From positions 1 to 57,453 of the IMG/VR virus record IMGVR_UViG_3300043409_000487: 57,453 bases of DNA, one strand, 5' to 3'. Numbering within the stretch: position 1 is the first letter of the stretch; each line of letters opens with the position of its first letter. Below are positions 7,988-53,314 of this stretch, piece by piece. Position numbers and translations under genes: made by a program. This DNA is from a virus. A model generated the notes under the pieces. The model did not search any database. It was not told the origin of the DNA and was given only the letters and a program-made list of their open reading frames with translations.

Positions 7988-8279
7988 TGTCTTCAATTTT
8001 TGAGTTTTGACTCAACTTTTCTAACAGAAGACAACAAGGTAAGTCACTCCAAACCCTCTAGCCCAGAGGGTTTGCACAAATCTGTCTTCACTAACTTCAC
8101 TAACTCAACCAAAATAAAATTGCTAGGTAAAACAGGAAAAGACTCAAAATAGGCTTCTAGACTATATCTCTCTCTCTTAATGAAGAGAGATAAGTATTTA
8201 AGTCAGCCCTGTAGAGACAACACTTTGCGGTGTCTTACCCTGTTGTCTTTTGTCTAAAGAATTGAGTCAGTGAAGACAG
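7988..8279 (+). repeat. 292-bp duplicated non-coding element, copy 1
   Basis: This aligns without gaps to 36346-36637: I count 45 differences in 292 bases, about 85% identity. It contains TGTCTTC...GAAGACA inverted sites (7988 and 8028), a GAGTTTTGACTC mini-palindrome, a hairpin at 8051-8073, and an inverted-repeat pair CTGTCTTCACT (8091-8101) / AGTGAAGACAG (8269-8279). It also has an AT-rich segment, a TATCTCTCT / AGAGAGATA hairpin, and TGTTGTCTTTTGTC near the right end. The whole gene-free stretch 7985-8344 is this element plus a short leader for 8345. It may be a replication origin, a regulatory RNA or a promoter region. Confidence 0.85.
8051..8073 (+). terminator. Hairpin after endolysin (within element copy 1)
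   Basis: AAACCCTCT (8051-8059) pairs perfectly with AGAGGGTTT (8065-8073) across a five-base loop, with three T in the arm end and then GCAC. It could terminate lysis/fibre transcripts. In copy 2 the same position keeps most pairing, including one C:G to G:C exchange. Confidence 0.55.
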
Positions 8280-11789: not shown

Positions 11790-11867
11790 ACGGCATTAGT
11801 TCAGTTGGATAGAACAGCAGTCTTCTACACTGCGTTGTCGGGGGTTCGAGTCCCTCATGCCGTGCCA
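11790..11867 (+). tRNA. tRNA-Arg (UCU)
   Basis: The 78-base sequence folds as a full cloverleaf. The acceptor is ACGGCAT with ATGCCGT, discriminator G and encoded CCA (11865-11867). The D arm is GTTC/GAAC, the anticodon stem GCAGT/ACTGC with loop CTTCTAC, and the T arm GGGGG-TTCGAGT-CCCTC. Anticodon TCT (bases 34-36) reads AGA and AGG. The phage uses these codons fairly often, especially in several late and small genes, so the tRNA probably corrects a codon mismatch with the host. Confidence 0.95.
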
Positions 11868-12026: not shown

Positions 12027-13238
12027 ATGCAGTTCAGCACCAAGCAACAAAAGGCACTTGCCGATGTTGAACGCTGGTACAGAAGTAAGACCAATGAGCA
12101 ACAAGTGTTCCGTGTCTTTGGGTACGCTGGCACGGGCAAGACTACGCTAGCCAGACACTTTGCTTCTAACATCGAAGGGCTTGTGTTGTTCGCTGCCTAC
12201 ACAGGCAAAGCAGCACACGTATTGCAACAGTCTGGGTGTGAAGGTGCAACAACAATCCACTCACTAATCTACATCTCAGCAGAAAAGAGCAAAGAACGAC
12301 TCAAGACCCTCAAGCAGCAGCTTGTGGAACGAACAGAATTCCTGCAGCAGCAAGGTAAGGATGTTGAATCGGACGTTCGTGTTCGTGAGTTGAAACGCTT
12401 GGTGGGTGAAGAGGAGAAGAGTGCAACCAGACCAATGTTCAGGTTGAACAACGACTCTCCTGTCAAGGGCGCAAAGTTAGTTGTCATTGATGAGTGCTCT
12501 ATGGTGGACGAACGGATGGCAGAAGACCTAAAGTCTTTTGGCGTACCAATTCTGGTTCTTGGAGACCCAGCACAGTTACCTCCTGTTGGTGGTGAAGGCT
12601 ACTTCACCAATGCTGAACCAGACGTCATGCTCACTGAGATTCATAGACAAGCCCAAGACAACCCAATAATCAGACTCGCAACCATGGCGAGAGAAGGCAG
12701 AAGACCTTCTTTGGGCGGTTATGGAGATAGCCTAGTAATACCCAAGGGGACAATCACCCCTGAACAGGCTTTGGCTGCAGACCAAATACTTGTTGGTAAG
12801 AACAAGACAAGACACTCAATCAATGCAAGAATTCGCAGCCTGAAGAATATGCCAATTGAACACCCAATAGTTGGTGACAGGGTAGTTTGCCTGAGAAACA
12901 ACCATGAATTAGGACTATTGAACGGTGCTGTCAGCGATATAATTGCTGTCACCGTCTATGATTCTGAAGAGATAATCATGACAGTGGATACCAATGGGAG
13001 ACCAACAGACGTTGTGGCTCACATGGCACACTTTCTTGGCAAAGAACTTGGGTGGTGGGAAAAGCGTGAACGTGAAGAGTTTGATTATGGGTACGCAATG
13101 ACCGTGCACAAGAGCCAAGGTTCACAATGGCAGAATGTCTTGTTGTTTGATGAAAGTTCATCATTCAGAACGGACTGGAATCGGTGGTTGTACACGGGTA
13201 TAACACGGGCTGCAGAAAAACTAACAATCGTTATCTAG
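12027..13238 (+). CDS. SF1 helicase, RecD/Dda-like
   Basis: A 403-residue ATP-dependent 5'-3' helicase type. Walker A GYAGTGKTT is near residue 35, Walker B VIDECSMVDE near 155, GDPAQLPPVGG near 178, and motifs V/VI YAMTVHKSQGSQW and LYTGITRAAEKL near 355 and 390. The Dda/RecD2 family loads at forks or displaces proteins. The start is set by AGAAAAGGAG before ATG 12027; a longer in-frame reading would begin inside the tRNA. It is followed eight bases later by nrdA. Confidence 0.88.
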   Translation: MQFSTKQQKALADVERWYRSKTNEQQVFRVFGYAGTGKTTLARHFASNIEGLVLFAAYTGKAAHVLQQSGCEGATTIHSLIYISAEKSKERLKTLKQQLVERTEFLQQQGKDVESDVRVRELKRLVGEEEKSATRPMFRLNNDSPVKGAKLVVIDECSMVDERMAEDLKSFGVPILVLGDPAQLPPVGGEGYFTNAEPDVMLTEIHRQAQDNPIIRLATMAREGRRPSLGGYGDSLVIPKGTITPEQALAADQILVGKNKTRHSINARIRSLKNMPIEHPIVGDRVVCLRNNHELGLLNGAVSDIIAVTVYDSEEIIMTVDTNGRPTDVVAHMAHFLGKELGWWEKREREEFDYGYAMTVHKSQGSQWQNVLLFDESSSFRTDWNRWLYTGITRAAEKLTIVI

Positions 13239-13246
13239 GAGTTAAC

Positions 13247-15043
13247 ATGACAACACTATCCCGTGAGCGTGACCAATTGCTCACTGACTTTGGAAAAGCA
13301 ACACTCAATGACCGCTACTTACTTCCAGGAGAATCCTACCAAGAAGCCTTTGCCCGTGTGGCTTCAGCCTACGCAGAAGACGAAGCCCACGCCCAACGAA
13401 TGTATGACAACATCAGTAAGTTGTGGTTCATCCCAGCGACACCTGTTATGTCCAACGGTGGAACAGACCGTGGGTTGCCAATTAGCTGTTACCTAAACAA
13501 CGTCGATGACAGTATGCAGTCAATCAGCGACAAGTGGACAGAGAATGTTTGGCTGGGTGCTGGTGGTGGTGGCATAGGTACATGCTGGTCAGACGTTCGT
13601 AGTATCGGTGAACCAGTCAAAGGTCGTGGGGGTTCTAGTGGAATTATCCCGTTCATTCGTATTTTAGATTCACAGGTGTTAGCAGTAAGTCAAGGTTCAT
13701 TAAGACGTGGTGCTGCAGCTGTGTACTTAGATGTGTCACACCCTGAAATTGAAGAATTCTTGGAAATTCGCAAACCCTCAGGTGACTTCAATCGCAAATC
13801 TCTGAACCTGCACCACGGAATCGTCTTGACAGATGCATTCATGGAAGCGGTTCGGGACAATCTGTCATGGGAACTTGTAGACCCACATTCGAATCAGGTG
13901 AAGAAGACTGTAAGCGCACGCAACATTTGGCAAAAGATTTTGGAAATACGTCTTCAAACTGGCGAGCCTTATTTATTATTCAAAGACAATGCCACCCGTG
14001 GTATGGCAGAGCACCAACGCCAGCTTGGCATGGAAGTTAAGCAATCAAACCTGTGCTGTGAGATTATGTTGCACACTGGCTTAGACCAACACGGCAAGGA
14101 CAGAACTGCGGTGTGCTGCTTGGGTTCTGTAAACCTAGAAAAGTGGTACGAGTGGAAGGATGACCCACAGTTCATCCAAGATTGCCTACTGTTCTTGGAC
14201 AATGTGTTGCAAGACTACATCGACCGCACCGAAGGTATGCAGGGGTTCGAGGCTGCACGCTATGCTGCATCACAGGAGCGTTCCGTTGGGCTTGGGGTCA
14301 TGGGCTTACATTCGTTATTCCAGCAGCGCAATATTCCTTTCGACTGTGCCATTGCCAAGAGCATGAACATGTCAATCTTCAAAAAGTTACGTGAAGACTG
14401 TGATGCTGCCAATGAGGCAATTGGAACACTGAAGGGTGCTTGTCCAGACGCTGCTCAGGTTGGCAAGAACTTAAGATTCAGTCATTGCATGGCGATTGCA
14501 CCAACTGCATCAATCAGTATTATTGGTGGTGGTGCTTCCCCGTGTGTTGAACCTTGGAACACGAACATCTTCACGCAGAAGACTCTTAGCGGTTCGTTCG
14601 AAGTGCGCAACAAGTACCTTGAGCAATTGCTTGAATCAGTTGGGGAAAACACAGAGAGCGTGTGGGATTCAATCCTAGAGGAACATGGTTCAGTACAGCA
14701 CCTGCCGTTCTTAACCCAAGAGCAAAAGGATGTTTTCAAGACTGCTTGGGAGATTGACCAACGCTGGGTGGTTGACTTCGCTGCAGACCGCACCCCACAT
14801 ATCGACCAAGGACAATCAATCAACCTGTTCCTGAAAGGTAACGTGGACAAGTGGGACTTGCACATGCTGCACTACACAGCGTGGAAGTCTGGGGTGAAGA
14901 GTTTGTACTACCTACGCAGCATGTCAACACAACGTGCTGGCTTTGTTGGTGGTGTGGAAAAAGATAACACAATTGAACGGGAACAGGTATTGGCACATGC
15001 TACTGGACGTTCGGACTATGAGGAGTGCTTAGCATGTCAGTAA
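13247..15043 (+). CDS. nrdA: Ribonucleoside-diphosphate reductase, large subunit (class Ia)
   Basis: A 598-residue alpha subunit that converts NDPs to dNDPs. Family residues are visible: LPISCYL (first active-site Cys), NLCCEI (catalytic Asn, Cys and Glu), VCCLGSVNL (partner Cys), PTASIS, LYYLRS (radical-transfer tyrosines) and a CLACQ C-terminal redox pair. It begins almost at the catalytic domain, so the N-terminal ATP-cone of cellular enzymes is missing. The start ATG 13247 has TAGGAG upstream. It overlaps nrdB by ten bases. Confidence 0.93.
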   Translation: MTTLSRERDQLLTDFGKATLNDRYLLPGESYQEAFARVASAYAEDEAHAQRMYDNISKLWFIPATPVMSNGGTDRGLPISCYLNNVDDSMQSISDKWTENVWLGAGGGGIGTCWSDVRSIGEPVKGRGGSSGIIPFIRILDSQVLAVSQGSLRRGAAAVYLDVSHPEIEEFLEIRKPSGDFNRKSLNLHHGIVLTDAFMEAVRDNLSWELVDPHSNQVKKTVSARNIWQKILEIRLQTGEPYLLFKDNATRGMAEHQRQLGMEVKQSNLCCEIMLHTGLDQHGKDRTAVCCLGSVNLEKWYEWKDDPQFIQDCLLFLDNVLQDYIDRTEGMQGFEAARYAASQERSVGLGVMGLHSLFQQRNIPFDCAIAKSMNMSIFKKLREDCDAANEAIGTLKGACPDAAQVGKNLRFSHCMAIAPTASISIIGGGASPCVEPWNTNIFTQKTLSGSFEVRNKYLEQLLESVGENTESVWDSILEEHGSVQHLPFLTQEQKDVFKTAWEIDQRWVVDFAADRTPHIDQGQSINLFLKGNVDKWDLHMLHYTAWKSGVKSLYYLRSMSTQRAGFVGGVEKDNTIEREQVLAHATGRSDYEECLACQ

Positions 15044-16023
15044 TACAACTAAAACAACAATCCGTTGGATACAAGCCGTTCCGTTACCCTTGGGCTTACC
15101 AGTTTTGGAAAGCCCAGCAGCAAGTCCACTGGCTGCCAGAAGAAGTGCCGTTGTCAGAAGACGTTCGTGATTGGGCGACAAGACTGTCAGACAACGAACG
15201 TGAACTGCTGACACAGATTTTCAGGTTCTTTACCCAGTCAGATATCGACGTGAATGACAACTACATGGAGAAGTACACGCAGGTATTCAAGCCCACAGAA
15301 ATTCGCATGATGTTGTCAGCGTTTTCAAACATGGAAACGATTCATGTTGACGCATATTCACTGCTGGTGGAAACTGTGGGCATGCCAGACGCTGAGTACA
15401 AGGCTTTCATGGACTATCAGGCAATGCGGGACAAGCACGACTTCTTAGGTCAGTTCAATGTCGACTCTGACAGAGACATCTTGAAGACTATGGCAGTGTT
15501 TGGTGCATTTACTGAAGGGCTTCAGTTGTTTGCTTCGTTCGCTATGTTGCTGAACTTCCCACGCTTCGGCAAGATGAAGGGTATGGGGCAGATAGTTACT
15601 TGGTCGGTGCGTGACGAGACTCTCCACTGTGAAGGTATTATCAAGTTATTCCACGAGTTTGCTGCTGAAACTGGTGCGCTGGACGAAGAACTGAAGCAAG
15701 AAATTCGCCAGATTGCACAACACGTGGTAGAACTAGAGGATAAGTTCATTGACCTAGCATTCGGTGTTGGTGGTATTGAAGGCATGACACCTGAAGACAT
15801 CAAGGCTTATATACGGTATGTTTGTGACTGGAGACTTAGTCAGTTGAAGCTGGAACCAGTGTTCGGCATAGATGTGCACCCACTGCCGTGGCTGAAGTCA
15901 CTGCTCAACGGTATTGAGCATGCTAACTTCTTCGAGACACGTTCTACGGAGTACAGCAAGGGTGCTACAAGCAGCACTTGGGAGGACACTTGGAATCATT
16001 TTGATTCTGTTGTGGTAAAGTAA
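15034..16023 (+). CDS. nrdB: Ribonucleoside-diphosphate reductase, small subunit
   Basis: A 329-residue beta subunit that houses the diiron-tyrosyl radical. Ligands and radical residue follow the family spacing: SDIDVND (Asp), METIH (Glu101, His104) with the radical Tyr108 four residues after the His, AFTEGLQ (Glu), and RDETLHCEG (Glu, His). The C-terminal tail (WNHFDSVVVK) presumably docks to NrdA. It starts inside the nrdA end and is followed by a promoter region. Confidence 0.93.
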   Translation: MSVIQLKQQSVGYKPFRYPWAYQFWKAQQQVHWLPEEVPLSEDVRDWATRLSDNERELLTQIFRFFTQSDIDVNDNYMEKYTQVFKPTEIRMMLSAFSNMETIHVDAYSLLVETVGMPDAEYKAFMDYQAMRDKHDFLGQFNVDSDRDILKTMAVFGAFTEGLQLFASFAMLLNFPRFGKMKGMGQIVTWSVRDETLHCEGIIKLFHEFAAETGALDEELKQEIRQIAQHVVELEDKFIDLAFGVGGIEGMTPEDIKAYIRYVCDWRLSQLKLEPVFGIDVHPLPWLKSLLNGIEHANFFETRSTEYSKGATSSTWEDTWNHFDSVVVK

Positions 16024-16075: not shown

Positions 16076-16134
16076 GTTGTTGTCTTTTGTCGTTGTTGGA
16101 GGCATAATGATGTCATGGTCGTGAATGTCATGAC
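16076..16134 (+). promoter_or_regulatory. Early promoter with TTGTTGTC motif and leader hairpin
   Basis: GTTGTTGTCTTTTGTCG occupies 16076-16092. Reading TTGTCT (16080-16085) as -35 leaves 17 bases to CATAAT (16103-16108). A GTCATG (16112-16117) / CATGAC (16129-16134) hairpin lies in the leader before AGAAAAGGAG and ATG 16159. The same long motif recurs at 29116, 31618 and 34532. Confidence 0.65.
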
Positions 16135-16158: not shown

Positions 16159-16683
16159 ATGTTTACTTTATCACAAATCACCGCCCTCACTTCTTCAGAA
16201 GAAACCAAAACAGCTGAGATGTTGTCTGTGTACAACGAACTCGCAACTGCGTTGGGCTTGAAGTCAGTTAATAAATTCGCAGACCGCAAAACAGCAGTTC
16301 GTCGCTTGAATGAAATTGTCACCCAAGCAAATGAAGCTGGCATTTTAGAATCAGAAAAGCCAACCAAAGTAACAAAGGTCAAAGAACCAAAAGAACGCAA
16401 ATCAATTGCTGTGAACTATCTTGGTATGCGTGCTGACCTTTACCCAAATGGCGTTCAACAAGTCCCAACACGTGGTGCAACTTGGCTGAAATGCTTTGAG
16501 TTGTTGCGTGCTGGTGCCACTGAAGAGCAGTTGCTTGGCGTGTGGGAAGGCAATCCAAAGGCTAAGACTAATGCTTACGAAATGACACGTATTTTCTGCA
16601 CTCGCTTCGGCTGGGGCACTCGTTCGGAAGACGGGAAAATCTTCTTAATAACTCTCGAAGAGAAACGCAATGCAAGCAAATAA
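16159..16683 (+). CDS. Probable DNA-binding protein of the hypermodification operon
   Basis: A 174-residue basic protein. Residues 25-60 carry LGLKSVNKFADRKTAVRRLNEIV, a motif found in many small phage and bacterial DNA-associated proteins. A Lys/Glu linker (about 72-88) leads to a C-terminal domain with RAGATEEQLLGVW and YEMTRIFCTRFGW that looks like a winged helix. It is the first gene after the 16076 promoter and overlaps the next gene, so it may regulate or assist the DNA-modifying enzymes. No enzyme motif is visible. Confidence 0.5.
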   Translation: MFTLSQITALTSSEETKTAEMLSVYNELATALGLKSVNKFADRKTAVRRLNEIVTQANEAGILESEKPTKVTKVKEPKERKSIAVNYLGMRADLYPNGVQQVPTRGATWLKCFELLRAGATEEQLLGVWEGNPKAKTNAYEMTRIFCTRFGWGTRSEDGKIFLITLEEKRNASK

Positions 16684-17518
16684 GATGAAGATTGAGGAGT
16701 TCGGAGCAATGCTCCTCTCCACAAAAGACCTTGACCCTGTTTACGTGGCTTTGGTAAACAGTGGTTGGGATTCTGAAAAGATTAAGCGGTGGATGGTAGC
16801 CTACTGGTGTCTATACCACTGCGGTGTGTCCTGCCATATCTCAGAATTTGAAGGTAAGGAATTTTGGGACAAGTTGATGGAAGCAGCTAAGAATGAAACA
16901 GCTTCCCCAATTGGTGAGCGTTGGTCACGTGGTGCTGAACGGAGACATTGGCGTGGTCAACAGGCGGTATCTTCTGCGCAGGAATTGATGGACAAGTACG
17001 AACGTCCAGAGCAGATGGTGGACTATATTGCTGGTGAAGGTGGAACATTCGCTGAAATTAGCAAGCGTGCACAAACTCACCGTGGGTTTGGTGACTGGAT
17101 TGGGTTCAAAATTGCTGACATGTGCGAACGTGTGCTTGGCAAGCCAGTTGCATTTGACAATGCAGCGGTGTTCATGTTCAAAGACCCAGAGAAGGCTGCG
17201 TGGATGCTTTGGGCAGAACGTAACCCTGAAATTGCCAACAACCCACATGCAACACCCAAACGAGAAGTTGTGCTGAATGGTGTGGCAGACTACCTGATGA
17301 ACCACTTCGCAGGTTACACTGCTCCACCACTGCACGACAGACCAGTGAACATCCAAGAGGTTGAGACCATACTGTGTAAGTGGAAGTCACATATGAATGG
17401 ACACTACCCTGCAGTCAAGGACATTCGTGAAATTCGACACGGGTTGGAAGACTGGTTTAGTGCTTCTGTGTCCGCACAGCAACTATACGCAGCAATGCCA
17501 ACTGGAGAATCATCATGA
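16670..17518 (+). CDS. Amino acid:DNA transferase / alpha-glutamyl-putrescinyl-thymine pyrophosphorylase-type enzyme
   Basis: A 282-residue protein whose helical core has WMVAYWCLYHCGVSCHISEF, RWSRGAERRHWRGQQA and GFGDWIGFKIADMCERV followed by VFMFKDPEKAA. I recognise this as the helical superfamily that replaces the pyrophosphate of pyrophosphoryl-hydroxymethyluracil in DNA with an amino acid or polyamine. The transferase (AADT) clade is my best match, but the two related clades cannot be separated here. It lies next to the flavoprotein (ATGA overlap at 17515). The start at 16670 is not strongly supported; ATG 16685 is an alternative. Confidence 0.7.
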   Translation: MQANKMKIEEFGAMLLSTKDLDPVYVALVNSGWDSEKIKRWMVAYWCLYHCGVSCHISEFEGKEFWDKLMEAAKNETASPIGERWSRGAERRHWRGQQAVSSAQELMDKYERPEQMVDYIAGEGGTFAEISKRAQTHRGFGDWIGFKIADMCERVLGKPVAFDNAAVFMFKDPEKAAWMLWAERNPEIANNPHATPKREVVLNGVADYLMNHFAGYTAPPLHDRPVNIQEVETILCKWKSHMNGHYPAVKDIREIRHGLEDWFSASVSAQQLYAAMPTGESS

Positions 17519-18369
17519 TTGCAGACACCATTGTAATTGGCAACGGCTTATTCGGTGCAATCATAGCCAAGTCTTTGAGAGCAATTGGACAAACTGTATT
17601 TGTCATTGACTCCAACGAAGAACGTGCTGGCAGTAAGCCAGCAGGGTGTTTGATGAAGCCAAGTTGGTACTCTGGACTTGGTAAAGAGGTTCATGAACCA
17701 AGTATGAAATTGCTTGATTCTTTGTACGGGGTGCAAACAGTCCAATTCAGCATAAAGCCAGTTGGTTCTGCAGAAGTGTATTGGATACCACCGTCCTCAA
17801 TACTCTCAGGTGAATATTGTGTCGGAAAAGTGACAGACATTAAACAAGCTGATGGTGGTTGGCTTGTTGCCGCAGATATTGGGGACTTTGAGATGTACCA
17901 CGCATGCAAGAATCTCGTGGTTGCTGCTGGTGTTTGGACGGAAAAGCTGCTTGAAAAACTTGGTGTATTCCCCAAAGGAGGTATGGCAGCCCAAACAGGT
18001 ATTAGCTGGGTGTGGGATGGTGCACTCAAAGAAAATACCATATCAGTGTGGGCACCATACCGTCAGTTAGTCGCTATGAACTTCGGTGAAGGCAAGTGTT
18101 GGGCTGGAGACGGAACGTCAATCAAGGATGTAAACTTCGGAGAGAAGCATGTACAAGCCAGCTGGAATAGATGCTCACCGTACGCAGAGGCTTCAGGTGG
18201 ATTTACTAACGGCAAGGGTATTATTGGCATGCGTCCATATATGAAGGGGCATAAGCCTTGCTATCTGGCAGAACCTCTGTCAGGACTTTGGGTTGCTACG
18301 GGTGGTGCTAAGAATGGTACTGTGGCAGCTGGTTATTGTGCACACGTTATAACGGAGGCTTTGAAATGA
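17515..18369 (+). CDS. FAD-dependent oxidoreductase (DNA hypermodification flavin lyase type)
   Basis: A 284-residue protein with the dinucleotide-binding loop GNGLFG at residues 9-14, an acidic strand end (FVIDSNEERAGSKPAGC) and a late GLWVATGGAKNG typical of the D-amino-acid-oxidase fold. In phages making modified thymidines, such a flavoenzyme acts on an amino-acid adduct on DNA; after glycine addition it would leave an aminomethyl base. The neighbours (transferase, GNAT, kinase) make that role likely. A generic amine or glycine oxidase is the alternative. Confidence 0.75.
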   Translation: MIADTIVIGNGLFGAIIAKSLRAIGQTVFVIDSNEERAGSKPAGCLMKPSWYSGLGKEVHEPSMKLLDSLYGVQTVQFSIKPVGSAEVYWIPPSSILSGEYCVGKVTDIKQADGGWLVAADIGDFEMYHACKNLVVAAGVWTEKLLEKLGVFPKGGMAAQTGISWVWDGALKENTISVWAPYRQLVAMNFGEGKCWAGDGTSIKDVNFGEKHVQASWNRCSPYAEASGGFTNGKGIIGMRPYMKGHKPCYLAEPLSGLWVATGGAKNGTVAAGYCAHVITEALK

Positions 18370-18788
18370 TTACTATTCGAACGGCAGTGGTTGAAGACCA
18401 CAATGAAATACTGAAGGTTGCAAAGCAGTCTAAGTACACCAAGGACTTCAGCAACACGGTCATGTTTAGTTCACCCGAAGCCTATGCCAAGGGGTGGATT
18501 CGTGTTGCTGAAGAAGACGGCAAGGTTATTGGGTTTACCTGTATCCGTGAAAAAGTAAGGCAGCCAGAAACTGTGCTCTACTTCATAACTGTTGACAAGG
18601 ACACAAAGGGCAAGGGTGTGGGCAAACTGTTGATACAAGACATCATCGACAGAACTCGACACAATACATTGGCACTCAACGTGGCAAAGGACAACACTGA
18701 AGCCAAGCAGTTTTATGACACCCTTGGGTTTGTTGTGGTCGGTGAATCGCTTGCAGGCAAGGGCTGGGCTTTGCGCAAAAGTTGGTAA
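18366..18788 (+). CDS. GNAT N-acetyltransferase
   Basis: A 140-residue GCN5-type acetyltransferase. The acetyl-CoA loop appears as KDTKGKGVGKLLIQ (residues about 79-92), followed by LNVAKDNTEAKQFYDTLGF, the usual substrate-side strand and helix. It overlaps the flavoprotein gene by four bases. By comparison with PaMx11-like phages, in which a GNAT acetylates 5-aminomethyl-uracil in DNA, this enzyme probably caps the modified base. Acetylation of another small amine cannot be excluded. Confidence 0.75.
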   Translation: MITIRTAVVEDHNEILKVAKQSKYTKDFSNTVMFSSPEAYAKGWIRVAEEDGKVIGFTCIREKVRQPETVLYFITVDKDTKGKGVGKLLIQDIIDRTRHNTLALNVAKDNTEAKQFYDTLGFVVVGESLAGKGWALRKSW

Positions 18789-18795
18789 CTTACGG

Positions 18796-18839
18796 ATTGA
18801 CCGTAACAAAAGAAAATGTATACTTCTGTTACGGTCAAT
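18796..18839 (+). promoter_or_regulatory. Strong hairpin before the DNA-kinase gene
   Basis: ATTGACCGTAAC (18796-18807) and GTTACGGTCAAT (18828-18839) are perfect complements over 12 bp with a 20-base loop. It sits between the GNAT stop and the ribosome site (AGAAAAGGAG) of 18868. Without a T-run it looks more like an mRNA stabiliser, processing site or translational operator than a terminator. No sigma-70 promoter is convincing. Confidence 0.6.
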
Positions 18840-18867
18840 GTTGGCTGAATTAGAAAAGGAGAATCAA

Positions 18868-19428
18868 ATGATTATCTCAATACGTGGAACCTCTGGTTCT
18901 GGCAAGACAACTTTAGTACGTTCCGTGCTGGAGAAATACCCAAATAAAGAACCAGAGTACATTCAAGGCAGAAAACAGCCGATTGGATACGTGATGTCTG
19001 GTTCTTCAGAACTTCGTGATTGCTATGTTGTTGGGCATTATGAAGCAGCCTGTGGTGGGTGCGACACAATCACATCTTACGAACAAGTGTTCGAAATTGT
19101 GCGTGAAAAGGTTCAGCAGTACCCAGCAGTGTTGTTCGAGGGTTTGCTCCTAACAGCAGAGAACAAGCGTTCAGCAGCATTGGCAGGGGATTACCCAGAC
19201 ACACACTTCGTGTTCCTAGACGTTCCTCTAGAGCAGTGCATTGCTCAGGTAAACCAACGTCGTTGGGCTAAAGATGCAAGCAAGCCTCCAGTGAACCCTA
19301 AGAATACTGCGAGTAAGCACAAAGGTGCTGTCTCCAACAAACGTCACTTGGATTCAGTTGGAGCTAATACATATTTACTGCCACATGCTGATGCAACAGC
19401 TAAGGTGTTGGAGTTATTGCATGTCTAA
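18868..19428 (+). CDS. P-loop kinase, putative 5-hydroxymethyl-uracil DNA kinase
   Basis: A 186-residue P-loop NTPase with Walker A GTSGSGKT at residues 7-14 and a VLFEGLLL Walker-B-like strand near 90. VFLDVPLEQCIAQVNQRR lies near 115-132. It probably phosphorylates hydroxymethyl groups of hmdU in DNA (twice, giving a pyrophosphate leaving group) as in M6- and ViI-like phages. The reading that it is a hydroxymethyl-dUMP kinase making the triphosphate is open. It overlaps the next gene by eight bases. AGAAAAGGAG precedes ATG 18868. Confidence 0.72.
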   Translation: MIISIRGTSGSGKTTLVRSVLEKYPNKEPEYIQGRKQPIGYVMSGSSELRDCYVVGHYEAACGGCDTITSYEQVFEIVREKVQQYPAVLFEGLLLTAENKRSAALAGDYPDTHFVFLDVPLEQCIAQVNQRRWAKDASKPPVNPKNTASKHKGAVSNKRHLDSVGANTYLLPHADATAKVLELLHV

Positions 19429-20302
19429 GCAGCCAATGGCAGTTGAGCGTGTAGTTGACTTCTTCAACTATGCTGCCAAGCGTCAAGCCATAAAAGACGC
19501 ACGGGATGCTGGAGTTCCCTTCCCATACAACAACACAGACCCAATTCTGCAGAACTATCGATTCTGCAACGTGTTCCGTGAAGACGACACTGTCACAACG
19601 TGGTTCAGAGAAAACATCCGCAGCAAGTTAGAAGGCGATAGCAAGGTGTTCATTGCAACAGTTGCCTTCCGTTGGTTCAATCGTGTGACAACGGGGGAAT
19701 TGATTAAGGACGTTTTAGTCGACAAGGGCTGGGATGCTGCTGAAGTCACCCAACGGCTTACTGGTGTCAGTCCAGTCACAACTGGTGCTTACATGATAAA
19801 GACTCCTGCAAAGATGTCCAAGTTGGATGGCTTAGTTCAGTGTATAAACAACATTGCGATAGATGTGCAGTTGGAACCAGAAAAAGTTTTCAATATCACA
19901 GAAAACACCACATTAGAGCAAGTCTGGGAGCAGCTAAGAAAATACCCGTACATGGGTAACTTCATGGCATATGAAGTTGTCACAGACCTTCGACACACAC
20001 ACCTGCTGCGCAATGCACCCGACACCAACTCTTGGGCTTCCGTTGGTCCAGGAGCAGCCAGAGGTATTGAGCGCATACTTAACGTCCCTGTGGGCAGTAA
20101 GTATTCCTACGCTAGCCAAAAAGACATACCAGTTTTGCTTGAATACATGCAAGAACTGTTAGAACTCTCTCGTGTCTATTGGTCAGGTGACAGATTGTGG
20201 GAAATGAGAGAGGTAGAACACACACTATGTGAGTTCGACAAATACGAACGTGCCCTAACAGGCGAAGGTAAACCAAAACAAATCTTTAGAAAAGGAGTAT
20301 GA
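19421..20302 (+). CDS. Helical hypermodification enzyme (hmdU DNA kinase helical domain / pyrophosphorylase-like)
   Basis: A 293-residue all-helical protein with DPILQNYRFCNVFREDD (residues about 36-52), WFRENIR, and GAYMIKTP. The DPIL..YRF.NV.REDD signature belongs to the helical domain that in some phages is fused to the hmdU DNA kinase and is related to alpha-glutamyl/putrescinyl-thymine pyrophosphorylases. Here it is a separate gene coupled to the kinase. It probably helps activate or substitute the base; its exact step is not decidable from sequence. Confidence 0.65.
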   Translation: MSKQPMAVERVVDFFNYAAKRQAIKDARDAGVPFPYNNTDPILQNYRFCNVFREDDTVTTWFRENIRSKLEGDSKVFIATVAFRWFNRVTTGELIKDVLVDKGWDAAEVTQRLTGVSPVTTGAYMIKTPAKMSKLDGLVQCINNIAIDVQLEPEKVFNITENTTLEQVWEQLRKYPYMGNFMAYEVVTDLRHTHLLRNAPDTNSWASVGPGAARGIERILNVPVGSKYSYASQKDIPVLLEYMQELLELSRVYWSGDRLWEMREVEHTLCEFDKYERALTGEGKPKQIFRKGV

Positions 20303-20304
20303 AA

Positions 20305-20883
20305 ATGGCTACTATTAAGTTGTCAGAACGTCTAAGAGGCATGATTCAGAAACACATAGTCAATGATTCTGCACAAAAGGCTGCATTATCTGCAGTAAGG
20401 GAAGCACGACAAGAACACAACAAGACGTTCTATGAGGCGTGGTATACCAAAGAAGAACGTGAGTTACTTGCATCTTTGCCACGCACTTGGGTGAAGAATA
20501 AGCAGTATGCTGAGATATTCTTGGAAAATGACCGTGGTTGGGACAATTGTGACTTTGGTGAAGAAAAGCCACTTGATTATAACGGTGGGAACAGATTCTC
20601 AGTCCCCAAAGACCACCCGTTCAGTATTCGTTACTATCAGCTGAAGCGTAAGTTAGAGGAGGCTGAAACTGAACTTGGTGTACTGGAACTCAAGGTGAAG
20701 GGTGTGCTCAGCAGCTTTACAACAGTAGCAGCTTTGCAAAAAGGCTGGTCAGAAATTGAGCCGTATATTCAAGCAGCCTTGACCGAAAACGGTATGGACG
20801 GTGGTAAAGTTTACCTCCCAGCAATTCCAGTTGCTGAGTTGAACGACATCCTCAAACTTCCAAAACAAGGTGAACAACAATGA
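20305..20883 (+). CDS. Unknown protein in hypermodification cluster (Nmad5-like?)
   Basis: A 192-residue, strongly helical protein (LRGMIQKHIV at the N-terminus, YQLKRKLEEAETELGVLELKVKG coiled coil near 110-130). It has KTFYEAWYTKEERELLASLP around residues 40-60. It is sandwiched between the transferase-type gene and the thymidylate-synthase homologue and is coupled to the latter (ATGA). The layout recalls the 'nucleotide modification associated' small helical families, but this is a weak match. The second ATG, 20305, is preferred because GGAG is too close to the first ATG (20299). Confidence 0.5.
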   Translation: MATIKLSERLRGMIQKHIVNDSAQKAALSAVREARQEHNKTFYEAWYTKEERELLASLPRTWVKNKQYAEIFLENDRGWDNCDFGEEKPLDYNGGNRFSVPKDHPFSIRYYQLKRKLEEAETELGVLELKVKGVLSSFTTVAALQKGWSEIEPYIQAALTENGMDGGKVYLPAIPVAELNDILKLPKQGEQQ

Positions 20884-21962
20884 TAGTTATTCGTGCTAAA
20901 AACGTACAAGATGCGTTGTGGCGTGGTATGGGCTTACTCGGAACTTCAGGTGTAAAGCGTGATTCCAGAAACGGTACTGTGTTGATGGCTCCAGAGCCTG
21001 TAACTACGGTTTATGAAAACCCAACGGAACGTGTGTTGTTCTGGCAACCACGTGATGCAAACCCATTCTTTCATTTGTTTGAAAGCCTATGGATGTTGGC
21101 TGGTAGAAACGACACCGCTTTTGTCTGTGAGTTTGTCAAGCGCATGTCCGACTATTCTGACGATGGTGAGACCTTCCACGGTGCGTATGGATACCGCTGG
21201 GTTCAACACTTTGGGTTTGACCAATTACAGCCAATAGTTGAAGCGTTGTGGAAAAATAAAGATGACAGACGTCAAGTGCTGCAAATCTGGGATGCTACTG
21301 CTGACTTAGGTAAACAAGGCAAGGACTTCCCCTGCAACATTGCGGTGCACTTCCAAGTGAATGTCAACGGTGCATTGGACATGTCTGTGTTCAACCGTTC
21401 CAATGACATGATATGGGGTGCGTATGGTGCAAATGCTGTTCACTTCTCCGTGCTTCAAGAATATATGGCAGGGGCAATTGGGATTCCAGTTGGTCAGTAC
21501 AGACAGGTGAGTGATAACTTCCATGCGTATACAGCAGTTTGGGAGCCTCTGGCTGAAGCCATGATGTACCAACCCCACGGTGAAGGCAGCATACTCAATA
21601 CCAACCACTACTTGAACCACACAACCCAAACCACCCCCTTGGGCGTTACACCAGAAAACCACGAAGAATTCATCCAAGACTGTATTGAATTCTGTCAGTA
21701 TGTTGTAACTGGAATTCCCAGTACATACACACCTAAGTCACAGTTCTTTAGCGGTGTGGTCATGCCAATGTTCATTGCCCACCAGAACTACAAACAAACT
21801 TCTGGTGTAGAAAAGTATGACTCCACCCTCCAGTTACTGGACGAGGTTACTGGACAAGATTGGGCGTTGGGTGCTTCCCTTTGGGTCATGTCAAGACGTG
21901 ACAAGTTCATGAAAGCCCAGCGGTTGCAACGTGCGCAGGACGATGGGGTATTCTATGAATAG
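20880..21962 (+). CDS. Thymidylate-synthase homologue, probable dUMP hydroxymethylase
   Basis: A 360-residue protein with the thymidylate-synthase nucleophile motif PCNIAVHF (Cys near residue 150) and the dUMP-binding RSNDMIWGAYGANAVHFSVLQEYMA segment. A QVSDNFHAY segment follows. Family members in hydroxymethyl-uracil phages use water to trap the methylene-folate intermediate and make 5-hydroxymethyl-dUMP rather than dTMP. That assignment rests on context (hmdU kinase and transferases), since methylase and hydroxymethylase look alike at this level. It overlaps the HD hydrolase gene by eight bases. Confidence 0.78.
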   Translation: MIVIRAKNVQDALWRGMGLLGTSGVKRDSRNGTVLMAPEPVTTVYENPTERVLFWQPRDANPFFHLFESLWMLAGRNDTAFVCEFVKRMSDYSDDGETFHGAYGYRWVQHFGFDQLQPIVEALWKNKDDRRQVLQIWDATADLGKQGKDFPCNIAVHFQVNVNGALDMSVFNRSNDMIWGAYGANAVHFSVLQEYMAGAIGIPVGQYRQVSDNFHAYTAVWEPLAEAMMYQPHGEGSILNTNHYLNHTTQTTPLGVTPENHEEFIQDCIEFCQYVVTGIPSTYTPKSQFFSGVVMPMFIAHQNYKQTSGVEKYDSTLQLLDEVTGQDWALGASLWVMSRRDKFMKAQRLQRAQDDGVFYE

Positions 21963-22461
21963 CCTAGAACTTGTTCAAGAGTACAGAACTGCCACGAAGG
22001 TGGAGCGTTGTCACACAATACCCCACCATGGTTCTTACTCCATTGGACAACATTCTGCGGATGCCTTGGCTTTGTTATTTGCAATAAAGCCAACTGTCAG
22101 CGCAAACCTTTGCAAGGCTATGTTGATGCATGACTTTGCTGAGCAGTACCTTGGTGACTTGCCAGCAACTGCAAAGTGGGAAAACCCAAAGTTGAAGCAG
22201 GTGTATGAAGAGGCTGAAGAACAAGCGTTGAAGAGCCTCTGTGGTGACTTTGACCTGACGGAAGAGGAAGCTATTTGGCTCAGATGGGCTGACATTCTGG
22301 AATTCTTCTTTTGGTGCTTAGACCAACAACGTCTTGGCAACATGAATGTGCAGCAACCTTTGAAAAATGCAGCTGGGTGGATTCAGAAGAACTTGAATAC
22401 TGCACCAGAACAAATCATACAACTGATAGGAGAAATTACGGATGAGAACAAGCAAGCCTAG
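21955..22461 (+). CDS. HD-domain nucleotide phosphohydrolase (YfbR-like)
   Basis: A 168-residue HD hydrolase. Metal ligands are visible as RCHTIPHHGSYSIGQHSADA (His33-like), AMLMHDFAEQYLGDLPAT (His-Asp pair) and a late RWADILEF Asp. It probably removes phosphate from deoxynucleoside monophosphates. In phages that replace thymine it may hydrolyse dTMP so that hmdUMP is used; that substrate is inferred. ATG 21955 lies inside the end of the synthase gene. Confidence 0.75.
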   Translation: MNSLELVQEYRTATKVERCHTIPHHGSYSIGQHSADALALLFAIKPTVSANLCKAMLMHDFAEQYLGDLPATAKWENPKLKQVYEEAEEQALKSLCGDFDLTEEEAIWLRWADILEFFFWCLDQQRLGNMNVQQPLKNAAGWIQKNLNTAPEQIIQLIGEITDENKQA

Positions 22462-22642: not shown

Positions 22643-22983
22643 CAACTGCGAATGATAAACAAGTTGGTGGAGAACACTACCAGAGTGAATACCAACACTG
22701 GGACTATGTCCCACAGGCTGAGTTGGACTACCACCAAGGGTGCGCAACAAAGTATTTGCGCTTTCGTAAAAAGAATGGCATGCAAGACCTGCAGAAGTTA
22801 CGGCACTATGTAGAGAAGTTGCAGGAGAAGCAGGAGAAGCGCAGAGAACTGTCCGAACGGTTTGGTGGGGCAAACGGCTTAACTGCCCAAGAGACAGCAC
22901 TAGCGGTTGCAATAGCCACGTCAGACTTTGATAAGGCTTTGCGTATTGTTGATGACTTAATCTTCGAGTGGGACGGAAAATGA
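22639..22983 (+). CDS. DUF3310 (SaV-like) small protein
   Basis: A 114-residue protein with KQVGGEHYQ...YQHWDYV near the start and GCATKYLRFRKKNGMQDLQKLRHYVEKL around residues 35-62. These features define the DUF3310 family, which is common in phage genomes near replication genes. A helical, charged C-terminal half follows. Role unknown; possibly a nucleotide or DNA metabolism accessory. Confidence 0.75.
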   Translation: MTTANDKQVGGEHYQSEYQHWDYVPQAELDYHQGCATKYLRFRKKNGMQDLQKLRHYVEKLQEKQEKRRELSERFGGANGLTAQETALAVAIATSDFDKALRIVDDLIFEWDGK

Positions 22984-24854
22984 TGCAAGGCATACTGTTC
23001 GAACCACAAAGTGCATGGACTCCACCCAACTTGGCGGACTTGCCAAGTTGGAAGGACGTTAAGCGTGTTGGGCTTGACACAGAAACAAAAGACCCTGACA
23101 TCAAGAAGTTTGGTCCAGGAGCGTTGCGAGATAACAGTTGGGTGGTGGGCATATCGTTTGCTTTTGAAGATGGCAAGTCTTACTACTTACCAATACGACA
23201 CAAAGGTGGTGGGAACTTGGACGAAGTTCAGGTGTTGAACTATCTACGTGAACAAGCTGAACACTTCACGGGTGAAATTGTCGGTGCCAACCTTTCTTAT
23301 GACTTGTTGTTCTTGGCTGTGGAAGACATCTGGTTCAAGTGGGCTACGTTCCGTGACATACAGATTGCTGACCCACTTATCTACGAGTTGCATGATTCTT
23401 ACAGCCTCAACAACATTGCCAAGCGGTATGGGTTCGAAGGTAAAGATGAACAGTTACTGCGTGAAGCAGCTTCAGCGTTTGGTGTTGACCCAAAGGCAGA
23501 CATGTGGAAACTGCATTCACGTTATGTTGGTGCATATGCAGAGGAAGATGCTGCATTACCACTGAAGATTTTGCGCAAACAAGAAGAAATAATTCTGAAG
23601 GAAGACTTGACAAGAATATGGGACTTGGAGTCCAAGGTATTGCCTGTTCTTGTCAAGTTAAAACTTCGTGGTGTTGCTGTGGACGAAGACAGACTCGAGC
23701 AAGTGGAACTTTGGTCAATGGAACAAGAGACCAAGGCACTTGAAGAAGTGTACGCCAGAACTGGGGTACGTATTGCAGTTGGGGACGTGTGGAAGCCAGA
23801 CGCAATTGCCCCAGCGATAAAATCCTTGGGCATAGACATGAGTCTAACAACCACAGGCAAGGTGTCCATCGATAAAGACTTTCTTGACAGCATAGACCAC
23901 CCCGTTGCCAAGGTTCTTGGTTGGGCACGTAAAACAAATAAACTGAGAACAACATTCGCAAATTCTGTACGTGTGAGGTTGATACACGGCAGGATTCACT
24001 GCTCATTCAACCAACTTGCAAGAGACGACGGAGAAGGTGGCGTCCGTGGTGCACGTTACGGTAGGTTGAGTAGCGAACAACCTAACTTACAACAACAACC
24101 TGCGAGGGATGAATTCGCAGCCATGTGGCGTGGTATCTATGTCCCAGACGGTGTTGGCAATTTATGGGCTGCATTGGACTATTCTCAGCAAGAACCACGG
24201 CAGTTGATACACTACGCAGAACTGTGTCAACTACCAAGGGCTTCTGAAGCAGCACAGCGATACCGTGATGACCCGAATACAGACAACCACCAGATGATGG
24301 CTGACCTTGCTGGCATTGCACGTAAGCCAGCCAAGGAACTATTCCTAGGTAAGTGCTATGGTATGGGCGGTGCGAAACTTTGCCACAAACTTGGACTGCC
24401 AACAAAACACATCACCACACGTGCTGGTAAGATTGTTGAAGTTGCTGGAGACGAAGGTCAGGCAATCATTGACAGGTTCGATAGTCAGTTACCTTTTGTC
24501 AATCAGTTGGCTAAGATGTGTGAGGCTTCTGCACAGCGCAAAGGGTACACACAAACCGTTGGTGGTCGCAAATGCCACTTCCCCAAAGATGTAAACGGCA
24601 ACTACGACTGGACGCACAAAGCACTAAACAGATTGATTCAGGGTAGTTCAGCAGACCAAACCAAGACGGCAATGGTTGCTGTGGATGCTGCTGGGTATGA
24701 GATTCAGCTGCAGGTGCACGATGAACTTGACTTGACTGTCAGTTCTAAAAAGGAAGCAGAAGACATTGCAGAGATTATGATGAACTGCTTACCACTGCGT
24801 GTACCTTCCAAGGTTGACGTGGAAGTTGGTGCTAGTTGGGGAGAAGCAAAATGA
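22980..24854 (+). CDS. DNA polymerase I family (family A) with 3'-5' exonuclease
   Basis: A 624-residue replicative polymerase. Exo motifs are VGLDTETKD (near residue 25), VGANLSYDLLFL (near 108) and YAEEDAALPLKI (near 185). Polymerase motif A is LDYSQQEPR near 400, motif B KPAKELFLGKCYGMGGAK near 452, and motif C LQVHDELDL near 580. In the O-helix the site equivalent to Phe762/Tyr526 is Leu. Thumb and palm are compact compared with T7 (704 residues). It overlaps the DUF3310 gene by ATGA. It probably copies hmdU-containing DNA. No thioredoxin-loop is evident. Confidence 0.92.
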   Translation: MMQGILFEPQSAWTPPNLADLPSWKDVKRVGLDTETKDPDIKKFGPGALRDNSWVVGISFAFEDGKSYYLPIRHKGGGNLDEVQVLNYLREQAEHFTGEIVGANLSYDLLFLAVEDIWFKWATFRDIQIADPLIYELHDSYSLNNIAKRYGFEGKDEQLLREAASAFGVDPKADMWKLHSRYVGAYAEEDAALPLKILRKQEEIILKEDLTRIWDLESKVLPVLVKLKLRGVAVDEDRLEQVELWSMEQETKALEEVYARTGVRIAVGDVWKPDAIAPAIKSLGIDMSLTTTGKVSIDKDFLDSIDHPVAKVLGWARKTNKLRTTFANSVRVRLIHGRIHCSFNQLARDDGEGGVRGARYGRLSSEQPNLQQQPARDEFAAMWRGIYVPDGVGNLWAALDYSQQEPRQLIHYAELCQLPRASEAAQRYRDDPNTDNHQMMADLAGIARKPAKELFLGKCYGMGGAKLCHKLGLPTKHITTRAGKIVEVAGDEGQAIIDRFDSQLPFVNQLAKMCEASAQRKGYTQTVGGRKCHFPKDVNGNYDWTHKALNRLIQGSSADQTKTAMVAVDAAGYEIQLQVHDELDLTVSSKKEAEDIAEIMMNCLPLRVPSKVDVEVGASWGEAK

Positions 24855-25345
24855 CCGAATGGGATAAGCGTTTTATGCAGATGGCACAACTTGTGGCTTC
24901 TTGGAGTAAAGACCCAAGTACAAAGGTTGGTGCGGTATTGGTTGGGGAAGACCGCTCAATACTTTCTACTGGGTTTAATGGATTGCCTAGAGGGGTGGCG
25001 GACTTACAACAACGACTGGAAGACCGTCCGACAAAATATTCAATGACCGTGCACGCAGAAGTAAACTGTATAATTCAAGCACCAAAGTTAAAAGGCACAG
25101 AAACTCTGTACGTGTACCCTTTGTTCTGTTGCTCTGCTTGTGCTGGGGTGGTTATACAGTCTGGCATACGCAAGGTGGTATTCCCTGCAGGGGCAGTGGA
25201 CAACGAACGATGGACAGATTCATTCAACCTAGCCTCTGAAATGTTTAAGGAGGCTAATGTCACTATGGAGTTTATTGATGTCGGAGAAGTTGATGCGCAA
25301 CAAGGTTGTCCAGCTGCTCAAACGGCTGGATGCGGTTGCTGTTGA
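24851..25345 (+). CDS. dCMP/deoxycytidylate deaminase-like
   Basis: A 164-residue zinc deaminase. Catalytic HAEVNC near residue 64 provides a zinc His and the proton-shuttle Glu. FCCSACAG supplies the Cys pair. The Pro normally preceding the first Cys is a Cys. Expected product is dUMP, the precursor of thymidine or hydroxymethyl-dUMP. The C-terminus is unusually Cys-rich (GCPAAQTAGCGCC). The start ATG 24851 overlaps the polymerase stop. Confidence 0.85.
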   Translation: MTEWDKRFMQMAQLVASWSKDPSTKVGAVLVGEDRSILSTGFNGLPRGVADLQQRLEDRPTKYSMTVHAEVNCIIQAPKLKGTETLYVYPLFCCSACAGVVIQSGIRKVVFPAGAVDNERWTDSFNLASEMFKEANVTMEFIDVGEVDAQQGCPAAQTAGCGCC

Positions 25346-29084: not shown

Positions 29085-29115
29085 AGCAACAAAAGTTCAC
29101 TTACTATGCAAAATA

Positions 29116-36345: not shown

Positions 36346-36637
36346 TGTCTTCAATTTTTGAGTTTTGACTCAGTTTTTCTAACAGAAGACAACAAGGTAA
36401 GACAGCTAAAACGCTGTGCCCGACAGGGTTTACGTCAATCTGTCTTCACTAACTTCACTAACTCAGCCAAAATAAAATTGCTAGGCAGAGAGCAAAAACA
36501 GCGAAAAACGGCTCCTAGTCTATATCTCTCTCTCTTAATGAAGAGAGATAAGTATTTAAGTCAAGCCTTTTGAGTACAGGGTTTGCGGTGTCTTACCTTG
36601 TTGTCTTCTGTCTAAAGAATTGAGTCAGTGAAGACAG
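36346..36637 (+). repeat. 292-bp duplicated non-coding element, copy 2
   Basis: Same length and orientation as 7988-8279. Conserved blocks include TGTCTTCAATTTTTGAGTTT, AACAGAAGACAACAAGG, CTGTCTTCACTAACTTCACT and CTATATCTCTCTCTCTTAAT, then TTGCGGTGTCTTACC and GTCTAAAGAATTGAGTCAGT. Variable blocks lie between. The 596-base gap 36200-36795 holds the terminator, this element, and then a leader with a GGGC/GCCC hairpin (about 36670-36685), a GGTCA/TGACC pair near 36695 and a TATAAT before TerS. Confidence 0.85.
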
Positions 36638-52100: not shown

Positions 52101-52260
52101 TGTTGTTGTGAATGTGGAGAGCAAGAAGGGTGAAGACAGTCAGAAAACTGGCGACAATATTGGCAAAGAAGTCAACCGTCAACTGGAACAAGCAATGGCT
52201 GAATTCGTGAGAAAACAACAACGTCCTATGGGCATGCTTAACGCTGGGAGCAAGATGTAA
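49165..52260 (+). CDS. Tape measure protein
   Basis: A 1031-residue protein that sets tail length. TP901-type core: AFGSDPTKQAEAMYQVLSAG (residues about 92-111) and ASSLGKVAPLAATMGVSL. There are hydrophobic segments near 375-425 and 515-555. The C-terminal lambda-like tail domain reads GGGFANGGAFSGG and RVGLMGEAGAEAIMPLRR. Residues about 690-830 hold two 90-residue repeats (EITGYQTDYNMKQQALNELL and EIRGYENDYMTKQQALDALL). It is by far the longest complete gene in the window. Confidence 0.9.
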   Translation: MTTENIDIRIREDGSRVVTRNLREMAQEAMSSDRAVGLLKKSLLGLASGFAISQLIREATTASREFGKAVANVNTLLDDTPGQLDKLTKSIKEQAVAFGSDPTKQAEAMYQVLSAGATDAADAMKTLEAANKLAVGGVTDVFVAADGLTSVMGAYGDAVGSATEVSDSMFIAAKAGKTSINELASSLGKVAPLAATMGVSLDELNSSIAALTNGGISTSEAVTGMRAILAAVAKPSKEAADMAKSLGLEFNSAGVKAKGFTGFLKDLTEKTGGSMDKMAVLFGGVEALVPVLALAGNAGEDFAKTLEMMKEKGGATEEAFRKITESGDFQMNRLAAVVKTAMIDIGDSIMNILAPAAKFIADNFDNIAKAAAVLGAALLVAFAPEIIALIGVGLTGALSLATGAVWTLTAAIASNPLGALLVAITAGITALVMWRDEISVTADGLVSLGDVGTAVWEMMAGGIEVVTNYMGEAWDTATAFVSELFAAFGQNAGSVLSAVANFAKNTINAQIGFWVFAFNSILSVWRGFPAAFVDFVLSAVNGAIGLLEGLINKSVAGVNRIIGMMNSVNAALGGDAAFVPEVSAVALGRVSNSYAGAGRALGREIKANFIGAMKEDYVGDFTNDVMAKARAASEKRRAAAAAKPTVPKTAVQELGDAAGGADGKGGKGGGADGEDKKPEETEAMKLKAQLLKEITGYQTDYNMKQQALNELLKEGSITNEQYAAAFDKIRVEYLLAKGGIENGIEAGLISLHKTAQDTAKGVASAIGQMYNEIRGYENDYMTKQQALDALLKNGSITNEEYATSFSKIRAEFLLSQGGLMAGVEAGFLRMHKSSKDLATEMASFTESAFGKMGDAMAEFVLTGKADFKGLVSSILSDLARMLMKYLITQAIIKATTAMFGGGFANGGAFSGGSEVTAFANGGVVSSPTMFGMSGGRVGLMGEAGAEAIMPLRRTKSGRLGVELTGAHGGGSSQNVFSPSVVVNVESKKGEDSQKTGDNIGKEVNRQLEQAMAEFVRKQQRPMGMLNAGSKM

Positions 52261-52607
52261 TGGCAACACCAACCTTACCCAATTACCCTGTCTCATACGG
52301 TTCTGACGTGTCCAGTGAAGCCAAGGTACTTCAGGCAGACTTTGGGGATGGCTACACCCAACGGGCTGGGGACGGCTTGAATAATGTCCGTAGAACGTGG
52401 GAGGTAAGTTGGGAGAATTACCCCAACGCCTCAATTGTGGAACTTGAGACATTCCTCAAGGGTCAGGGTGGTTACAAGTCATTCTTTTGGACTCCACCAA
52501 ATTCAACTATTGCTGCCAAGTGGTCGTGCAAGACTTGGAAAAGCAAGCCAGCTGGGTTCGGAATATCCACGCTGAGTGCAACATTCGTTGAGGAATTTGA
52601 CCTATGA
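52260..52607 (+). CDS. M: Minor tail protein M
   Basis: A 115-residue protein of the lambda gpM family: ADFGDGYTQRAGDGLNNVRRTWEV (part) and SFFWTPP. It is part of the tail tip. TAATG overlap with the tape measure; the next gene overlaps its end. Confidence 0.88.
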   Translation: MATPTLPNYPVSYGSDVSSEAKVLQADFGDGYTQRAGDGLNNVRRTWEVSWENYPNASIVELETFLKGQGGYKSFFWTPPNSTIAAKWSCKTWKSKPAGFGISTLSATFVEEFDL

Positions 52608-53314
52608 CAGATACAATTCAGTCCCTTAGCCAACAACCAGAAGCAGGTGACTTGGTGCAACTGTTTATTGTTGACTTGACAAATATCGGTGGGACAATCT
52701 ACAGGTTTACCCCAGCACCGCTTGACAGTCATACTGTCAAGCTGGGCGGTGCTGAGTTCTTCCCAGTACCTGTTGAGGCAGATGGCTTTGAGTGGAATGG
52801 CACAGGAACTTTACCCACACCAACTCTAAAAATATCCAATGTTGAGAACATTGTGTCTTCAGCGATTGCTGAGTATGGTGACCTCATCGGTGGTGTTGTC
52901 ACCAGAATTAGGACATTCAAGCAATTCTTGGATGACGGTGCAACCCCTGACCCAGACGCACTATTCCCATTAGATGTGTACACTATTGAACGCAAGGTTG
53001 CTCAGAACAAGACCTACGTTCAGTGGGAATTGTCTGCAGCCATAGACCAAGAAGGTGTCAAACTTCCAAAAAGACAAACATTGAGGGATGCTTGTACACA
53101 TAGATACAGGATATTCTTTGCAAGCACTGGGACTTTCGACTACAATAAGGTGACATGCCCTTACGTTGGTTCCAGTTACTTCGATAAGTTTGGAAATGCA
53201 ACTACGATAGACAAAGATTCCTGTGGTAAGAAACTGTCAGATTGCAAACTTCGCTTCGGTGAAGGTGCAGTACTCCCGTTTACAGGCTGTCCAGGAATGG
53301 CAAGGATAAGATGA
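52604..53314 (+). CDS. L: Minor tail protein L
   Basis: A 236-residue gpL homologue. Four C-terminal-half cysteines (RDACTHRYR, VTCPYVG, KDSCGKKLSDC, FTGCPGM) match the family's iron-sulphur/zinc-binding region. It joins M and I at the tip. Coupled by ATGA on both sides. Confidence 0.88.
   Translation: MTDTIQSLSQQPEAGDLVQLFIVDLTNIGGTIYRFTPAPLDSHTVKLGGAEFFPVPVEADGFEWNGTGTLPTPTLKISNVENIVSSAIAEYGDLIGGVVTRIRTFKQFLDDGATPDPDALFPLDVYTIERKVAQNKTYVQWELSAAIDQEGVKLPKRQTLRDACTHRYRIFFASTGTFDYNKVTCPYVGSSYFDKFGNATTIDKDSCGKKLSDCKLRFGEGAVLPFTGCPGMARIR

Follow-up and report, generated by a model that had tools for sequence, protein, structure and literature searches.

A PaMx11-type operon for thymidine hypermodification, with 5-acetylaminomethyl-dU as its likely product, in a mosaic phage

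Which DNA base would be made by the modification genes of IMG/VR virus record IMGVR_UViG_3300043409_000487, and in what kind of phage do they lie? The window, that is, the whole stretch analysed (57,453 nucleotides), was read in all frames, and its proteins were compared with Pfam, PHROGs and NCBIfam. Eight genes follow one another at 16670-22461, in the order amino acid:DNA transferase (AADT), flavin-dependent lyase, GNAT, P-loop kinase, HMUDK_hel, Nmad5, thymidylate-synthase (TS) homologue and HD phosphatase. They are listed here with a gene at the head of the operon and two genes beyond its end:

16159 to 16683, + strand: small gene of unknown function at the operon head, overlapping the AADT gene by 14 nt (weak phrog_4730 match, 1.2e-5)
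16670 to 17518, + strand: AADT, predicted 5-phosphomethyl-dU glycinyltransferase (PF18724, 4.6e-27; PDB 8z2m, 2.9e-103)
17515 to 18369, + strand: FAD-dependent enzyme, predicted flavin-dependent lyase giving 5-aminomethyl-dU (PF01266, DAO, 3.6e-13)
18366 to 18788, + strand: GNAT acetyltransferase, predicted capping enzyme for the aminomethyl group (PF00583, 6.1e-15)
18868 to 19428, + strand: P-loop kinase, predicted hmdU DNA kinase (Walker A GTSGSGKT; phrog_800, 4.4e-21)
19421 to 20302, + strand: HMUDK_hel, helical partner domain of hmdU DNA kinase (PF18723, 2.8e-43)
20299 to 20883, + strand: Nmad5, nucleotide modification associated domain 5 (PF18757, 5.2e-13)
20880 to 21962, + strand: TS homologue, predicted dUMP hydroxymethylase (phrog_5131, 1e-127; PF00303, 1.5e-19)
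21955 to 22461, + strand: HD-domain nucleotide phosphatase, YfbR-like (PF12917, 2.4e-9; 43% identity to the PaMx11 HD protein)
22968 to 24854, + strand: family A DNA polymerase (PF00476, 1.4e-46; 59% identity to PaMx11)
24836 to 25345, + strand: putative dCMP deaminase, possible source of dUMP (41% identity to a PaMx11 protein annotated as putative dCMP deaminase)

All frames of the operon are open, without internal stops, and the genes overlap by 4 to 14 nt, the sole exception being a 79-nt gap 5' of the kinase. Starts have Shine-Dalgarno-like sites or are coupled to the preceding gene; for the kinase the most likely start is 18868, preceded by a strong AAGGAG site. A sequence-only reading had placed six protein classes at 16670-21962, and profile matches recover each of them there, the match of the P-loop kinase to a named hmdU-kinase profile being weak. 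The HD hydrolase expected 3' of this set is also present, its start being corrected to 21955. The products of 16670 and 19421 both belong to DNA-modification families (PF18724 and PF18723); the latter had been taken for a second, pyrophosphorylase-type helical protein and belongs instead to HMUDK_hel. The classes named in that reading were thus all found, but the Nmad5 gene had been missed.

The AADT protein matches the 'glycinyltransferase' of PDB entry 8z2m, whose title designates the PaMx11 5-PmdU glycinyltransferase gp46/PUGT, and it is 58% identical to PaMx11 gp46. In the AADT tree the window protein groups with PaMx11 and Epa5, with weak support (82/67). Directly 3' and overlapping by 4 nt comes the flavoenzyme, which matches two PDB structures of a 'flavin-dependent lyase' (8z2o, 2.6e-64; 8z79, 2.6e-63) and carries a GNGLFG dinucleotide-binding motif, although it is only about 41% identical to its PaMx11 counterpart. 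As a single-protein query it had no match in IMG/VR; relatives were gathered there with alignment queries, which did give matches. The GNAT gene follows the lyase gene directly, again with a 4-nt overlap, and its product shares 65% identity with PaMx11 gp48, the best conserved pair of the operon. Structure comparison found no close solved relative of this protein, and 5-aminomethyl-dU is its presumed substrate.

The kinase matches the HMUDK_HMUD1 profile at 3.2e-4 only, under the curated cut-off, but the kinase of PaMx11 likewise misses the cut-off of the named hmdU-kinase profiles. The window kinase is 47% identical to PaMx11 gp49, the gene of which is annotated 'terminase small subunit', and about 27% identical to that of M6. 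Two hmdU-kinase-like genes occur in the related operons of L017 (at 13493 and 14083), L025, L074, L075 and L077, possibly reflecting two sequence specificities. For HMUDK_hel, an AlphaFold model built on 20 metagenomic relatives reached a pLDDT of 93.7. Its best PDB matches, the PaMx11 glycinyltransferase and 8-oxoguanine DNA glycosylases, are all weak (E 0.02 or worse), and these fold matches would be consistent with a base-flipping DNA-binding role. In the TS homologue, the catalytic PCN Cys152 and Asn185 are invariant in an alignment with the proteins of PaMx11, M6, CN2, Sonora and TM26, and the uracil-binding Asn is kept in an alignment that includes the PaMx11 and M6 proteins.

Operon genes, families, gene order and orthology to PaMx11 are directly established. 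Pseudomonas phage PaMx11 (Mesyanzhinovviridae, Bradleyvirinae, Abidjanvirus) has in its operon gp46-gp52 the same AADT, flavin lyase, GNAT, kinase, HMUDK_hel, TS and HD genes in the same order beside the polymerase, at about 40 to 65% identity, but no Nmad5 between HMUDK_hel and TS. In Pseudomonas phage M6 and Bordetella phage CN2, the genes for AADT, kinase, HMUDK_hel, Nmad5, TS and HD are arranged relative to one another as in the window. The place of flavin lyase and GNAT, however, is taken there by PLP and radical-SAM genes (the 5-NedU route in M6), and the kinase is of a different subtype, with about 27% identity to that of the window. Stenotrophomonas phage Sonora (Mesyanzhinovviridae) shares AADT, flavin lyase, kinase, HMUDK_hel, Nmad5 and TS with the window, but has no GNAT, and its kinase is of the M6 subtype. 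A product of the M6 type (5-NedU) was rejected, since PLP and radical-SAM genes are absent: the M6 proteins had no match in the operon region, where flavin lyase and GNAT fill their place. Plain hmdU as the final base was rejected as well, given the presence of AADT and flavin lyase.

The Nmad5 gene, placed between HMUDK_hel and the TS homologue, has family members at the same place in M6, CN2 and Sonora and none in PaMx11. A tblastn search of phages with the window protein gave no match because the family diverges fast, and presence in the three phages was settled with the Pfam profile. The Nmad5 model is of low confidence (pLDDT 70); a fold search with it returned as best matches phage proteins that are unnamed or annotated as Nmad5, and no functional lead. 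It is a rather doubtful idea that Nmad5 might steer or alter the modification in this lambda-tailed phage, for example its sequence choice or extent, and so give a base pattern unseen in PaMx11.

From the work on PaMx11 and M6 we infer each reaction and the final base. Before replication, the dCMP deaminase would supply dUMP, which the TS-like enzyme would convert to hydroxymethyl-dUMP; the HD enzyme would remove competing nucleotides, and the phage polymerase would incorporate hmdU into DNA. After replication, the P-loop kinase and its helical partner would phosphorylate hmdU within DNA, AADT would swap the phosphate for glycine, the flavin-dependent lyase would trim the glycine adduct to 5-aminomethyl-dU, and GNAT would acetylate the latter to 5-acetylaminomethyl-dU, which may shield phage DNA from host nucleases. 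According to 2018 and 2022 papers of the Weigele group, PaMx11 DNA reportedly carries acetylaminomethyl-dU, made by its GNAT.

Gene content was compared over 83 AADT loci, among which some contigs are present as repeat copies. Flavin lyase and the PLP gene were never found together, and GNAT was present only alongside flavin lyase; this argues that the window follows the PaMx11 route. The interval between lyase and kinase in flavin-lyase relatives contains GNAT, or Amidoligase_2 and low-molecular-weight (LMW)-phosphatase genes, or neither. GNAT occupies it in the window, PaMx11, Epa5 and four metagenomic contigs. An amidoligase is found in 20 of the 83 loci, 19 of them also with the LMW-phosphatase; the pair lies 5' of the lyase in a few loci, and in one of the 19 PLP and radical-SAM genes replace the lyase. 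Loci L008, L011-L017, L019, L023, L025-L027, L029, L030, L035, L036 and L065 mostly have both Amidoligase_2-like and LMW-phosphatase-like genes, an example of the interval being L012:4452-5797. Matches to the Amidoligase_2 profile are weak (8.1e-5 to 0.009, with none in one homologue), the proteins being 42 to 60% identical to one of them used as query; matches to the LMW-phosphatase profile are firm, down to 6e-14. GNAT and amidoligase never occurred in one locus among the 83. Such mutual exclusion suggests that GNAT on the one hand, and amidoligase plus phosphatase on the other, add two alternative acyl caps to 5-aminomethyl-dU. Among the papers searched, none joined hydroxymethyluracil with an amidoligase; the 2022 pathway paper, which reportedly surveyed gene combinations across viral metagenomes, may already describe the pairing.

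Two elements near or within the operon are candidates for its regulation:

16076 to 16094, + strand: 19-bp intergenic motif GTTGTTGTCTTTTGTCGTT, candidate regulatory repeat upstream of the operon
18797 to 18838, no strand assigned: perfect 12-bp inverted repeat TTGACCGTAACA flanking a promoter-like TTGACC-16-TATACT, between GNAT and kinase

The 19-bp motif has three exact copies in the window (16076, 29116 and 34532) and one with 3 mismatches (31618), compared to 0.04 expected by chance. It recurs upstream of operons, one copy preceding the hypermodification operon; around the copies at 29105 and 34521, identity is 98% across 85 nt. The element at 18797-18838 looks like a regulated internal promoter.

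The surrounding genome had been described as otherwise non-Yua-like. This holds for the head-tail part, but not for the replication block (8258-28419) and the two terminase subunits, which are colinear with PaMx11. When the window and the complete PaMx11 genome were compared in translation, orthologues from helicase to primase proved colinear, mostly at 41 to 60% identity, and the terminase subunits matched at 34% (small) and 61% (large), which makes the replication part Mesyanzhinovviridae-like. A tRNA-Arg gene (anticodon tct, 11790-11867) lies directly 5' of a Dda-like helicase gene. The ribonucleotide reductase genes (13184-16023) are only 27 to 29% identical to those of PaMx11 and in swapped order within the otherwise colinear block, so they are probably of other origin than their surroundings. 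The polymerase tree unites the sampled Mesyanzhinovviridae (PaMx11, Epa5, M6, CN2 and Sonora) in one clade (99/96) and places the window outside it, and a search for close DNA relatives among phages found none near. For the structural half, matches to PaMx11 were few and weak, short of a head-tail module related to Mesyanzhinovviridae; PaMx11 has other head-tail genes, without the lambda-type L and K tail families found here:

52260 to 54632, + strand: lambda-type tail-tip genes, homologues of M, L, K and I (phrog_14, phrog_18, phrog_30 and phrog_32, 2.5e-30 to 3e-75)

These matches confirm the lambda-type tail noticed earlier. In genomes that carry this pathway such a tail is unusual: no match to phrog_18 came from any of 35 other records that have AADT or flavin-lyase genes, and none to phrog_30 from the 17 of these that were tested for it; some of the records are fragments. 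Among tape measures, those of Dinoroseobacter phages come closest to the one in the window. Repeats of a tail-fibre-like gene (30-1925), lying at 1-659, are found again at 57141-57430 with 76 to 81% identity; the presence of fibre-gene repeats at both contig ends indicates that the genome may be circularly permuted and the contig broken within a repetitive fibre region.

Family matches, solved enzymes of the PaMx11 type and the PaMx11 gene order all back the earlier reading of a PaMx11-like thymidine hypermodification, and we consider it likely that the operon is of this type and yields 5-acetylaminomethyl-dU. The route might be the same up to 5-aminomethyl-dU and end on another base than in PaMx11, if the GNAT moved a different acyl group or acted elsewhere. 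The substrates of GNAT enzymes are hard to predict, and the cap clearly varies within the group, as relatives hold amidoligase and phosphatase in this slot; we nevertheless judge this outcome improbable, the GNAT being in the same position as its PaMx11 counterpart and forming with it the best conserved pair of the operon. Decay or poor expression of the operon, leaving only hmdU or an intermediate in the DNA, might be imagined for a metagenomic contig, but seems very unlikely with open frames, starts that are coupled or preceded by Shine-Dalgarno-like sites, and motif residues that are kept.

If the contig joined two phages, the association of the PaMx11-like block with the lambda-type tail would be an assembly artefact, and the operon itself would be unaffected. 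The lack of this tail family in the 35 other records speaks for such a junction. However, the PaMx11-like terminase genes lie directly 5' of a portal that is not PaMx11-like, GC is uniform along the contig, and two copies of a 292-nt noncoding repeat, 85% identical, lie 5' of the early block (7988-8279) and of the terminase block (36346-36637). Even GC and the shared repeat make a chimeric contig unlikely, and we hold the probability of two joined phages to be very small. The repeat has 74-nt inverted-repeat arms and is possibly a control region.

The system itself is already known, and what we describe is another PaMx11-type operon, in a mosaic phage. In pelagiphage podoviruses, TS and aG/PT-PPlase1 genes have been reported, and phylogenies tie them to M6-like and PaMx11-like genes (PMC9599517), so that hypermodification genes were already known outside Yua-like genomes. 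With the present operon, the gene set predicted to make acetylaminomethyl-dU is now also seen in a phage that has another type of tail. This supports the movement of replication and modification genes as a block between virion types, and the swappable capping position, occupied by an acetyltransferase or by an amidoligase and a phosphatase, leads to testable predictions on undiscovered DNA bases.
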